The position numbers and the translations under genes are program-made. 64,000 nucleotides of DNA from Prosthecobacter debontii (lineage in GTDB: Bacteria > Verrucomicrobiota > Verrucomicrobiia > Chthoniobacterales > Chthoniobacteraceae). A model generated the notes under the pieces. It searched no databases and was not told the origin of the DNA. It saw nothing but the letters and a program-made list of their open reading frames with translations. The stretch lies in NCBI GenBank assembly GCA_945905735.1, contig CAMDQC010000004.1, forward strand, positions 1 to 64,000, given 5' to 3'. Shown piece after piece: positions 22,551 through 27,084 of this stretch (position 1 is its first letter; every line of letters begins with the position of its first letter).

Positions 22551-23010
22551 GAGTAATAAAGAGCCCAAGCTCCGCGCGAACGTCGCGGCAATCCTTCGCA
22601 ATCGCGAGGGCAAAATCCTCATCTGCGAGCGCGTCCACATTTGGAATGCGTGGCAATTCCCGCAGGGCGGCGTGGACGATGGGGAGACGCTGGAGCAGGC
22701 GCTCACTCGCGAGTTGCGGGAGGAGATCGGCATCGAGCCCGGCGACTTCCGCATCGTCGAAATGCGCAGCGGCTATATGTATATGTTCCCCGGCGGGCGG
22801 AAAAAGGGCTTCGAGGGGAAAGACCAGACTTACTTCCTGTGCGACTTCCTCGCCGATGACTCGAAGATCAATGTGGAGACGGAGATCCCGGAGTTTCGCG
22901 GGTGGAAGTGGATCGCGCCTGCGGACTTCCGCAAAGCATGGCTGCCGCCGATGAAGATCGATGTGTACACGCAGGTCTTCGGCGACTTCTTCGGCATCCA
23001 ACTCGCGTAG
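22549..23010 (+). CDS. rppH: Nudix hydrolase, RppH-like
   Basis: A 153-residue Nudix enzyme. The Nudix box spans about residues 42-64 in the form GGVDDGETLEQA then LTRELREEIGI, with the catalytic REL-REE core. WQFPQGGVDDGE, the C-terminal PPMKIDVYTQVFGDF and overall size match RNA pyrophosphohydrolases. RppH-type enzymes remove pyrophosphate from 5'-triphosphorylated RNA and start decay; a dinucleoside polyphosphate substrate is the main alternative. The stop codon overlaps the GTG start of the ketosynthase gene (TAGTG). Confidence 0.85.
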   Translation: MSNKEPKLRANVAAILRNREGKILICERVHIWNAWQFPQGGVDDGETLEQALTRELREEIGIEPGDFRIVEMRSGYMYMFPGGRKKGFEGKDQTYFLCDFLADDSKINVETEIPEFRGWKWIAPADFRKAWLPPMKIDVYTQVFGDFFGIQLA

Positions 23011-24194
23011 TGCCAGCCGCATCCGCCAACACTCCGCGCCGCGTGGTCATCACAGCGATGGGCACCGTCAGCCCGCTGGGAATCGGCTGCCGCGAAGCCT
23101 CCCGTGCGCTGCGCGAAAGCGGCGATTGCGTAGCGCCGGTGACGATGTTCGATGTCTCAAAATGCCGATCGAAAACGGCGGGGCACGCGCCTTCGCTCCC
23201 GGCGGACGATGAGCGTCTGCACCCGGCCTCGCGCATGATGATCGCCGCTGCGCTGGAGGCTCGCGCGGGTGATGCGGGGTTCGTGCCGGAGTGTGCCGTC
23301 ATCGGCACGACGAGCGGCGGAATGTCGGATGGTGAACGCTACTTTCGCACGCAGAGCACGAGGCAGCGCGGGCAAGGTGCGCTCATCGCAAACTACCCCG
23401 CGCAACGCCCGGTGCTCGATGCTCTGCGCGCTCTCGGCTCCACGGCTCCGGCGCAGATTATCGCGAATGCTTGCGCGTCCGGGAGCAACGCAATTGGCCA
23501 TGCTTTTCGCCTCATCCGCGCGGGCATTCACGACCGCGTGCTTGCGGGTGGATACGATGCGCTTTGCGAGCTGGTGTATGTCGGGTTCGATTCTCTGCAA
23601 GCGGCGACGACGGATAAAGTGCGGCCTTTTGATCGTGGCCGCAGCGGGCTCGTGCTGGGCGAAGGCGCGGCGCTTTTAACGCTCGAAGAGCGGACCTCCG
23701 CACAACGTCGCGGCGCTCCGATTCTCGCCGAGGTGACGGGCTACGGAATCTCCACCGACAACCACCACCTCACTCAGCCGCACCCCAGCGGGATCGGCCC
23801 GGAGTTGGCGATGACTCGTGCGCTCGCCGACGCGCGCCGTGGGCCGGGCGAGATTGATTACATCAACGCGCACGGGACGGCGACGGCCTTTAACGACAGC
23901 AGCGAAGGCGTGGCGATCGGGAAAGTTTTCGGCGCGCGAGTGCCCGTGAGTTCCACGAAAGGAATGATGGGCCACTCGCTCGGCGCGGCGGGTGCCATCG
24001 AGGCGGTGTTCTGCGTGCTGGCGATGAACGAGCGATTCCTCCCGCCCAATATCAACTACCGCGAAGCCGACCCGGCGTTCGATTTGAACATCGTCGCGAA
24101 CACCGCCCGCGAGGCGGAACTGCGCGCCGTTTTGTCGAACTCGTTTGGATTTGGCGGCACGAATGCGTCCATCATTTTGGAGGTCGCACGATGA
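23010..24194 (+). CDS. Beta-ketoacyl-ACP synthase (FabF/KS-alpha-like)
   Basis: A 394-residue condensing enzyme with an intact Cys-His-His triad: Cys155 in ANACASGSNA, His288 in NAHGTATAFND and His322 in GMMGHSLGAAGA. It begins with GTG 23010, giving PAASANTPRRVVITAMGTVS. It elongates acyl chains on acyl carrier protein. Pairing with a catalytically dead partner downstream (ATGA overlap) resembles the KS-alpha/chain-length-factor pairs of type II polyketide and aryl polyene pathways. No ACP, ketoreductase or dehydratase gene lies within the window. Confidence 0.88.
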   Translation: MPAASANTPRRVVITAMGTVSPLGIGCREASRALRESGDCVAPVTMFDVSKCRSKTAGHAPSLPADDERLHPASRMMIAAALEARAGDAGFVPECAVIGTTSGGMSDGERYFRTQSTRQRGQGALIANYPAQRPVLDALRALGSTAPAQIIANACASGSNAIGHAFRLIRAGIHDRVLAGGYDALCELVYVGFDSLQAATTDKVRPFDRGRSGLVLGEGAALLTLEERTSAQRRGAPILAEVTGYGISTDNHHLTQPHPSGIGPELAMTRALADARRGPGEIDYINAHGTATAFNDSSEGVAIGKVFGARVPVSSTKGMMGHSLGAAGAIEAVFCVLAMNERFLPPNINYREADPAFDLNIVANTAREAELRAVLSNSFGFGGTNASIILEVAR

Positions 24195-25204
24195 GCGCAC
24201 TCACCAGCCGCATCCTCGGCACCGGCATCGTCACGCCGCACGGGACGAGCCTCGCATTTGGGAAGGAAGCGCCGCCCGTCAGCGAGATCACGAACCCCGA
24301 AACGGGCCGCAAACATCTCATCGCGACGGTGCCCGCAGCATGCAGCGCGCACCTTGGCCGCGAGCCACGGCTGCGCCGCGCGAGTACGATCAGCCTGCTC
24401 GCCGCCACCGCTGCGCAGGCTGCGATTTTGCAAAGCGGCATCACGCCCGGTAGCCGCACGGCGCTCGTGCTCGGGGTGTCAAACGGCTGCGCGCAATACA
24501 CGCGGCGGTTTTACGAACAGATCGTCAAAACGGGGGCGAACACCGCGAGCCCGTTGCTCTTCCCCGAGACCGTCCACAACGCGCCCGCCAGTCACCTCGC
24601 CGCGATGCTGAAGCTCGACGGCGCGACTTACACGCTCATCGGCGACGCGACCGTCGGGCTGCAAGCGCTCCACTTTGCCAACCAACTCCTTACGATGGGC
24701 GACGCCGATCACGTCATCGTCGCCGCCGCTGAGGAACTCGACTGGATCCTCGCCGAAGGCCACCACCTTTGGCGGCTCACCAGCAGCACCGGCACTTGCC
24801 GCCCCTACGCAGGCGGCGGGACATTGCTCGCCGAAGGTGCAGCCGCAGCCGTCCTCGCGCTCGAAGGCGGCTCCGCAAAACTCACCACCGTCCCCGGCCA
24901 AACAATCCCCAGCCGCCGCCACGCCACCGCCGCGCTGCGCGCCACGATTTCACAGCTCGGCGACGTGCAGCCCGACCACATCGTGGATGGCGCAAACGGC
25001 ACTTGGCTCGACACCGCATACGCGCAGTGCGGCCCGAGCGACCGGCGCGTTTCGCCAAAAGCGAACATCGGCGACGCCATCGGTGCATCCGCGCTCCAGC
25101 AAGTCGTCTTCGCCACCGCGCTCGCCGGGCGCACGCTGGTCCCCGCGCTCGGCTGGAACCAGCAAGCGGCAGCGGCACTCGTGGAAAGTTCCGCAGAAAA
25201 CTGA
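24191..25204 (+). CDS. Ketosynthase-like protein lacking the catalytic triad (chain-length-factor-like)
   Basis: A 337-residue thiolase-fold protein homologous to the gene before it. The nucleophile position reads LIGDATVGLQA, with Ala (about residue 153) where the active enzyme has Cys. The first His motif is replaced by DGANGTW (His to Asn) and the second by ANIGDAIGASALQ (His to Asp). It cannot condense by itself and probably forms a heterodimer with the active KS, as chain-length factors do. It is about 55 residues shorter than its partner. Confidence 0.75.
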   Translation: MSALTSRILGTGIVTPHGTSLAFGKEAPPVSEITNPETGRKHLIATVPAACSAHLGREPRLRRASTISLLAATAAQAAILQSGITPGSRTALVLGVSNGCAQYTRRFYEQIVKTGANTASPLLFPETVHNAPASHLAAMLKLDGATYTLIGDATVGLQALHFANQLLTMGDADHVIVAAAEELDWILAEGHHLWRLTSSTGTCRPYAGGGTLLAEGAAAAVLALEGGSAKLTTVPGQTIPSRRHATAALRATISQLGDVQPDHIVDGANGTWLDTAYAQCGPSDRRVSPKANIGDAIGASALQQVVFATALAGRTLVPALGWNQQAAAALVESSAEN

Positions 25205-25240: not shown

Positions 25241-26023
25241 ATGCACGAAGAACCTTTCCGCTGGGTCGAGGCGATTGCCAATCGGCGCGAATACATCGAA
25301 GATCAATTGGCCACGGGCAGCCCGATTGTCGGCCTCAGCTACCGCGACGGCGTGCTGCTTTTCACCCTCAGCCGCGAGCGGCAAAAGCTGTTTGAAATCC
25401 ACGACCGCATCGCCCTCGGCGGGCTCGGGCATCCCGGCGACATTGAGCGGCTGCGTCTTGCAGCCATCGAGGTCGCAGGCGCGGAAGGCTTCGCACGTTC
25501 CGCCGATGATGTGTCGCTGCGGAGGCTCGCGAATTTCTCGCTCTCGCCCGCGTTGAAGGCAGCGTTCGAGCAAATCTACGGGCCGCCATTTTTAGCCCGC
25601 CTGCTCTTCGCAGAGCTTGGCCGTCGCGGCACGCCGAACCTTTTCGCGCGAGTGGATTTCGACGGCTCGATCCGCACGAACGGCGGATCGTTTGGTAAGT
25701 CATTCGAGGACTTCGGAGTCATCGCGGGGAAAGCGCTCGCCATGCGGCAAATGGAGACTTTTCTCGCCGCCAATCCTACCTCCGCCGCCACGCTTCCCGA
25801 TGCGCTGCGGACCGCCGCGAGCACTTGGGCGATGGGCCACATGGCGCTCGCGCAAGAGCGTGAGGCGGACGCGCCTTCGGCCACCGACCTCGCCGCACAC
25901 CTCGCGACGCAGCTCAGTAACACCAGCATCGAGGCCATCGTGATGGAGCACAAATCGCCCATCGCCGTCGCCTACCGCACGCTCGCCGAAGCCGACGTGC
26001 GAGAAGCACTCTCCGCCAAATAA
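25241..26023 (+). CDS. 20S proteasome alpha-type subunit homologue
   Basis: A 260-residue Ntn-hydrolase-fold protein resembling actinobacterial PrcA. It opens with a helix (FRWVEAIANRREYIEDQL), as alpha subunits do. Then come PIVGLSYRDGVLLFTLSRE, KLFEIHDRIALGGLGHPGD, the DD-x-SLRRLANF segment and VDFDGSIRTNGGSFG, each aligning by eye with PrcA blocks. There is no N-terminal catalytic Thr after a propeptide, so it is alpha- rather than beta-type. No beta subunit, Pup/UBact, Dop, PafA or Mpa gene is visible in the window. The start is set at ATG 25241; TTG 25205 is possible. An Anbu-like relative cannot be excluded. Confidence 0.68.
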   Translation: MHEEPFRWVEAIANRREYIEDQLATGSPIVGLSYRDGVLLFTLSRERQKLFEIHDRIALGGLGHPGDIERLRLAAIEVAGAEGFARSADDVSLRRLANFSLSPALKAAFEQIYGPPFLARLLFAELGRRGTPNLFARVDFDGSIRTNGGSFGKSFEDFGVIAGKALAMRQMETFLAANPTSAATLPDALRTAASTWAMGHMALAQEREADAPSATDLAAHLATQLSNTSIEAIVMEHKSPIAVAYRTLAEADVREALSAK

Positions 26024-26031
26024 AACTCACC

Positions 26032-27084
26032 ATGTTCATTCGCACACTCCTTCTCGTCATCTGCGCACACGTCGCCGTCGCAGCCGACGCACCGCTCGCC
26101 TTCACCGATTCCGCGCCCAAGCGCTACGAACTCACCGCCCGCGCCAGCCTCATTGACCCACGCGCAAAGTCGCATCCCGAGATCGATTTCGTTTTTGAAA
26201 AAGCCGGCAAACCCACCGACACCGAGAACGCCTCTGTGGACACCCGTGTGAAGCCGCAGGGCAAGCTCGTCATCTGGCTCATGGGGCCCAGCCCCGCGCT
26301 GTTCGAGCGACTGAATAGCTACGGACTCCACGCCATCCGCGTCCATTACGCGAACGGTTGGTTTGGCAAATTCGGCAAAGAGCCCGCGCCTGCCGACGAC
26401 AAGTTCCTCGGCAAAATCCGCCTCGAAGCAGCCACCGGCGAAAACACCAGCGACGTCGTCGAAATCCCCAAGCCCGACAGCATCCACGAGCGCGCCGTGC
26501 AGTTCGTGATATGGCTCGCCAAAGAAAACCCGCAGGGCAAGTGGGATACATTTCTCACCGCCGACAAAAACGATCTGCGTTGGGAAAAAGTCATCCTCTC
26601 CGGCGCATCCCACGGTGCCACCACAGCCGCTCGATTTGCGAAAGCACAGCGCGTGGATCGCGTCGTCATGTTCTGCGGCCCACGCGACCAATATGAGACG
26701 TGGCAAGGGCTCCCGTCGGCCACGCCAGCCAACCGCTTTTTCGGCTTCAGCCACACGCTCGACGGCGGCTGGAGCGGCGACCACTACTGCCGCTCGTGGG
26801 AGCTTCTCGGGCTGCGCGAGTTTGGGCCCATCGTGGATGTGGATAAAGAGCCCGCGCCCTTCGGCAACACGCGCCGACTCACCACCAGCGCAGATGTCGG
26901 CGGCAACGCGAACCGCGCCCACGGCTGCGTCACACCCGGCGGCTCGGCGGTGAAGGGGGTCGATGGAAAGTTGATCCACGAAGCAGTCTGGCGCTACCTT
27001 TTCAACCAACCTATCGAAGTCACCGGCAAGCCCGTCCCTCACGACGAAGGCTGCCGCATGGACCTCCGCCAGCCGAAGAAATAA
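26032..27084 (+). CDS. Secreted alpha/beta-hydrolase-fold protein
   Basis: A 350-residue exported protein with signal peptide MFIRTLLLVICAHVAVAAD. The nucleophile elbow is LSGASHGATTAARFA (G-x-S-x-G), preceded by the strand WEKVIL. HGCVTPGG or the C-terminal His-containing stretch could supply the catalytic His. It resembles uncharacterised secreted hydrolases (BPSS1187-type). The substrate is unknown. It follows the proteasome-like gene by eight bases and precedes the 3D-domain lipoprotein by three, so all may share one transcript. Confidence 0.65.
   Translation: MFIRTLLLVICAHVAVAADAPLAFTDSAPKRYELTARASLIDPRAKSHPEIDFVFEKAGKPTDTENASVDTRVKPQGKLVIWLMGPSPALFERLNSYGLHAIRVHYANGWFGKFGKEPAPADDKFLGKIRLEAATGENTSDVVEIPKPDSIHERAVQFVIWLAKENPQGKWDTFLTADKNDLRWEKVILSGASHGATTAARFAKAQRVDRVVMFCGPRDQYETWQGLPSATPANRFFGFSHTLDGGWSGDHYCRSWELLGLREFGPIVDVDKEPAPFGNTRRLTTSADVGGNANRAHGCVTPGGSAVKGVDGKLIHEAVWRYLFNQPIEVTGKPVPHDEGCRMDLRQPKK

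Follow-up and report, generated by a model that had tools for sequence, protein, structure and literature searches.

A PrcA-type proteasome alpha subunit gene apart from prcB in a verrucomicrobial genome with a UBact-linked proteasome gene set

The alpha gene and its product

The window, which is the whole stretch of 64,000 nt that was analysed, contains on its forward strand a gene for an alpha-type subunit of the 20S proteasome. The reading frame begins with ATG at 25241 and its stop codon ends at 26023, as the earlier note had proposed. The gene sits inside the 70,367-base contig C4 of the assembly studied here (G000; 5.19 Mb, 258 contigs, 93.5% complete). The unusual neighbourhood described in the earlier note, directly behind a pair of ketosynthase genes, was found again. 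The features of this region are as follows.

22902..24194, forward strand: FabF-like ketosynthase with an ACASG site, given from the listed ORF start (translation probably begins further downstream); context only
24191..25204, forward strand: ketosynthase-like protein with GDATVG in place of ACASG; context, not proteasome
25241..26023, forward strand: prcA-type 20S proteasome alpha subunit, 260 aa, the sole alpha gene found in the genome
25385..25387, forward strand: codon of Lys49, which the alignments place with the activator-docking Lys of PrcA
26032..27084, forward strand: downstream gene, 350 aa, which adjoins alpha only in G000 and G002

The second ketosynthase looks non-catalytic because it has GDATVG where the first has ACASG, and it is presumably a chain-length-factor-like partner. 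The 350-aa downstream protein had no Pfam match. A scan for the sigma-70 consensus, a method that tells little in this phylum, revealed no promoter before alpha. The gene is probably co-transcribed with its new neighbours. There is an in-frame TTG 36 nt upstream of the ATG. The first start codon of 17 of the 20 other aligned alpha sequences falls exactly at ATG 25241, which is thus the likely start.

Profile searches placed the protein with the bacterial 20S alpha subunits. It matched a single Pfam family, Proteasome (PF00227), with 27.3 bits (E 3e-6), above the curated cut-off of 22.4. TIGR03691 (20S_bact_alpha) was by far the best NCBIfam family (E 1e-16, 61.1 bits), the archaeal 20S beta family followed weakly, and neither HslV nor any other family was found among the NCBIfam matches up to E 10. 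Searching the PDB retrieved PrcA-type chains with the single sequence (E 6e-12) and PrcA with a 49-row profile (E 7e-19), the alignment of the latter fading beyond about residue 206. Judged by these scores, the PrcA-like similarity that the earlier note had recognised is far beyond chance. The score of 61.1 bits is below the equivalog cut-off of TIGR03691 (139.05), which was reached by none of the 21 alpha-bearing genomes among the relatives, including those with prcB and prcA side by side. This indicates that the verrucomicrobial branch as a whole falls below the cut-off, and we therefore call the protein PrcA-type rather than an equivalog of actinobacterial PrcA.

An AlphaFold2 model of alpha built from 49 sequences had a pTM of 0.77 and a mean pLDDT of 72, with helices at residues 6-14 and 16-23. 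When the model was compared with known structures by Foldseek, all 50 matches listed came from 20S proteasomes, and 48 were mycobacterial. The best PDB matches were chains of the M. tuberculosis proteasome, and among the mycobacterial matches listed the TM-score by target length was 0.72-0.77 at about 21-25% identity. The protein has no N-terminal Thr. It is predicted to have the 20S alpha fold with an N-terminal helix instead of the catalytic Thr, as had been expected from the sequence, residues 1-14 of the model being of low confidence. The earlier note had also considered that a profile search might assign the protein to an unrelated fold; the profile, PDB and fold matches all pointed to PrcA. 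Lys49 is invariant in all 49 aligned alpha sequences and aligns with the conserved Lys of PrcA, which serves activator docking according to the available portion of one report (PMC12288473).

Partner genes in the genome and in relatives

No match to a beta subunit, UBact, PafA/Dop or Mpa was found inside the window. The description of alpha as a lone subunit without partners thus stands for the window. It does not stand for the genome, since UBact, prcB, PafA, Dop and an Mpa-type ATPase are encoded elsewhere in the same assembly, which agrees with the link between Verrucomicrobia and UBact that the earlier note had brought up. Those partner genes that were given coordinates are as follows.

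C152:9983-10138: UBact, directly before prcB (NF033388, 79.5 bits, cut-off 35)
C152:10274-10933: prcB match (TIGR03690, E 8e-51)
C106 (L115:625-2538, the same gene as L216), reverse strand: Mpa-type ATPase (TIGR03689, E 5e-136)

UBact consists of 58 aa and ends with RYKQRTGE. The prcB product scored 173.9 bits with TIGR03690, below the cut-off of 191.9; it has a 45-aa propeptide followed by the mature start TTILAF and, as read from this sequence, is Thr-active. The Pup_ligase family was matched above its cut-off twice, by a gene on C247 that is closest to PafA and by one on C24 that is closest to Dop; neither gene reached its equivalog cut-off. The ATPase on C106 reached 454 bits, below the TIGR03689 cut-off of 504.75. 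Only two Pfam Proteasome matches, alpha on C4 and the beta subunit on C152, were present in the whole genome, and a whole-genome search of this 93.5% complete assembly found no second alpha gene. A complete UBact-proteasome gene set, as assigned by these matches, is present and spread over five contigs. prcB and alpha are not adjacent; adjacency is usual and is no functional requirement. Since the verrucomicrobial alpha and beta subunits, PafA, Dop and the ATPase all go undetected at the equivalog cut-offs, automatic annotation may hide UBact-proteasome systems.

Co-occurrence of the genes was examined in two sets, 38 relatives and 188 genomes of the class. Among the relatives, UBact and beta were matched in the same 21 genomes, and alpha and the Pup-ligase family were each found in 21. 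Alpha and beta occurred together in 20; G005 has alpha without beta and G009 has beta without alpha. In the class, alpha (alignment A1) and UBact were found in exactly the same 42 genomes, 41 of which had the ATPase at E 1e-80 or better. The exception, G011 (L044; 96% complete), has UBact, prcB and prcA, its alpha on a long branch, and gave neither a match to the PafA/Dop family nor an ATPase at E 1e-80. G009 has UBact and prcB, and a search of it with the alpha alignment gave no alpha at E up to 1, which may be due to a gap in the assembly (86% complete) or to loss. In G003, two slightly different alphas were detected (C378:3-308 and C751:80-850), of which one adjoins prcB and is cut by the contig end and the other lies on a short contig. 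They may stem from a mixture of strains (contamination 5%) or represent a genuine second copy.

Gene order and relocation of alpha

In 40 of the 42 class genomes, alpha and UBact share a contig and strand, with alpha 763-1509 nt downstream; the only exceptions are G000 and its closest relative G002. Likewise, alpha is beside beta in 17 of the 20 relatives having both, G003 being scored as adjacent on one of its two alphas, and not in G000, G001 and G002, which belong to one genus. We kept 80 of 247 loci found as named loci; prcB was located within 400 nt upstream of alpha in 73, three had too little sequence, and four (L116, L118, L124 and L125) had no prcB there. The named loci and the genomes overlap, and these counts are not independent. 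In L124 and L125, which are from Chthoniobacter assemblies, prcB is 1.4 and 2.1 kb upstream of prcA, with a Phd/YefM-YoeB pair (L124:4611-5125) and a PIN-domain gene (L125:5627-6004), respectively, in between. The presence of these toxin-antitoxin-type genes indicates that the prcB-prcA junction has taken insertions.

The gene that follows prcB in G000, G002 and G009 belongs to TauE (Pfam); on C152 the next gene is one that we take to be YqgE-like. Alpha lies between the ketosynthase-like gene and the 350-aa gene in both G000 and G002, and these two genes are on different contigs in G009. In G001 an Amidase_3 gene follows alpha and the UBact-prcB pair is on another contig; in G016 an Amidase_3 gene also follows alpha, with UBact, prcB and prcA together. 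Because the downstream neighbour of prcB is visible on C152, alpha was not cut off at a contig edge. An assembly-edge artefact was thus rejected: alpha is inside C4, and G002 repeats both arrangements. The idea that alpha is a recent duplicate of a complete prcA-prcB-pup locus was also discarded, since the UBact-prcB locus on C152 lacks prcA and the genome has one alpha.

Among the class genomes, the ATPase and UBact are no more than 6 kb apart in 25 of the 32 from outside the order and in none of the 9 from within it. Mpa adjoins Dop in G009 (C221). The two genes are on different contigs in G000 (C106 and C24), and likewise in G001-G005 and G008, which indicates that more than prcA is dispersed in the genus.

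In the alpha tree, G002 is the nearest neighbour of G000, and G008 and G001 of the same genus join next, which indicates that alpha was inherited and moved rather than acquired. Horizontal transfer was rejected on this grouping and on a composition near that of the neighbours: the GC content of alpha (0.64) is within their range (0.62-0.68), and its GC3 (0.76) is just below that of the neighbours and prcB (0.77-0.82). The trees disagree on two genomes. The beta tree places G001 with G000/G002/G009 (support 84/97), whereas the alpha tree places G008, which keeps prcB and prcA together, with G000/G002 (96/93) and G001 outside (86/83). As a result, either one or two separations of prcB from prcA may have taken place.

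Alpha is under purifying selection: its dN/dS between G000 and G002 was 0.10, compared with 0.04 for beta and 0.11 for the ketosynthase-like neighbour. The dN of alpha was 0.196 for G000/G008 and 0.227 for G000/G004, compared with 0.190 for G008/G004; alpha shows no acceleration toward G000 relative to members that retain the operon.

With a probability of about 0.94, we conclude that the G000 gene encodes the alpha subunit of the UBact-linked 20S proteasome of a Chthoniobacteraceae-type verrucomicrobial genome, that the ancestral order was UBact-prcB-prcA, and that alpha was relocated out of the operon in the branch leading to G000. The homology, the presence of all partners, the single alpha, the ancestral order in relatives, the same order in G002 and the purifying selection are all established. 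Weighing against this reading are the score below the TIGR03691 equivalog cut-off, the modest mean pLDDT of the model, the lack of an alpha match in G009 and an ATPase tail without the known docking motif. It is improbable that alpha is instead a paralogue with a role of its own, such as an alpha-only ring or a chaperone, the true proteasomal alpha being missing from the assembly. Such a gap is compatible with 258 contigs at 93.5% completeness, and the two sequences in G003 make two copies conceivable. However, the second copy in G003 may come from a strain mixture, the alpha tree contains one orthologous set within the genus, the visible neighbour of prcB argues against loss at an edge, and G002 has the same single alpha in the same place together with the same prcB-TauE junction.

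Still less probable is a decaying remnant, in which case departure from the operon would be a sign that this branch is losing its proteasome. In two members of the genus, G006 (only 76% complete) and G007 (96%), no component of the system was matched, and G009 yielded no alpha, which would suit such a loss; the low dN/dS of alpha and beta, the intact frame, the conserved invariant residues and the complete set of partners speak against it. All Ntn hydrolases are distantly related, and alpha might on this ground be assigned to another bacterial family of them (HslV, Anbu or BPH). This is very improbable given the NCBIfam ranking and the Foldseek matches listed, which are exclusively to 20S proteasomes. 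The relocated alpha subunit of the UBact-linked proteasome thus remains the best explanation.

Comparison with known proteasomes and docking of the ATPase

The closest described relatives are the UBact-linked 20S proteasome alpha subunits of Verrucomicrobia, such as that of Chthoniobacter flavus Ellin428 (L127), a full-length homologue with 58% identity. The start motif M-x-E-E-P-[YF]-R is common to the G000 alpha and the verrucomicrobial UBact-linked alphas, and the relatives have the same partners. The difference is in the gene order: prcB is directly upstream of prcA in L127, whereas alpha is away from prcB in G000. In the parts of the literature available to us, proteasome genes in Verrucomicrobia were already reported in 2008 (PMC2474590, PMC2588565), with C. 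flavus listed in the abbreviations of a figure legend (PMC2588565). The proteasome subunits of Methylacidiphilum infernorum (Minf_1279, Minf_1281 and Minf_1284), of the same phylum as G000, were described in the accessible text as unexpected gains and lie with accessory genes in one neighbourhood (PMC2474590), in contrast to the dispersed genes of G000. The G000 alpha is thus a further member of the known verrucomicrobial proteasome set, and its separation from prcB is a local variant. A separated prcA was not found in the titles or abstract openings of the papers that our searches on bacterial and verrucomicrobial proteasomes, UBact and prcA-prcB gene order listed, most subscription papers being outside the scope of this search.

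The mycobacterial and rhodococcal PrcA proteins (PDB 1q5r, 3h6f and 5lzp) resemble the G000 alpha in the fold, the position of the N-terminal helix and the docking Lys. In Pup-proteasomes, as far as the available portions of three reports go, PafA tags substrates and the ATPase recognises the tag, uses its own tail and the conserved alpha lysine to dock on the alpha ring, and passes the chain on to beta (PMC8755798, PMC12288473, PMC8223512). By analogy, seven copies of alpha, which lack an active site, would form each outer ring, gate the chamber and offer pockets to the Mpa-type ATPase. PafA would attach UBact to the targets and Dop would remove it; the ATPase would unfold tagged proteins into the chamber, where they would be cut by the beta subunit encoded beside UBact on C152. 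The gene encoding alpha has, on this reading, split from prcB in the ancestral UBact-prcB-prcA operon and reached its present place between the ketosynthase-like and an unrelated gene. Assembly of alpha into rings with the C152 beta, gating and a function in this pathway are what the gene set leads us to expect.

The ATPase tail differs from that of the mycobacterial partner. The C-terminus of the Mpa-type ATPase was [VI][VI], not GQYL, in 32 of the 33 ATPase loci read, namely L115 (= L216) and further loci among L073-L077 and L203-L230, with VV in 17, VI in 10, II in 4 and IV in one. In the 33rd locus, L229, the match is cut near the contig end and no frame was obtained. A GQYL tail was found in none of the 33, although the pocket lysine of alpha is kept. 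Docking may proceed by the [VI][VI] tail. It is a tentative proposal, which we consider somewhat less than evenly likely to hold, that docking differs from that in mycobacteria by a tyrosine-free [VI][VI]-COOH tail with the pocket Lys retained, and that the rings are built from two transcription units. If this is true, a tail without the penultimate tyrosine would have to serve both docking and gate opening, and in this genus, with alpha cut loose from beta, the ring stoichiometry would be met from two separate transcription units.

The finding is real but mostly ordinary. It removes the apparent oddity of an alpha subunit without a proteasome, and it shows that purifying selection on a full UBact proteasome can persist when the genes for alpha and beta are no longer together. 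The genome thus offers a natural case for asking whether side-by-side translation of prcB and prcA matters for assembly.
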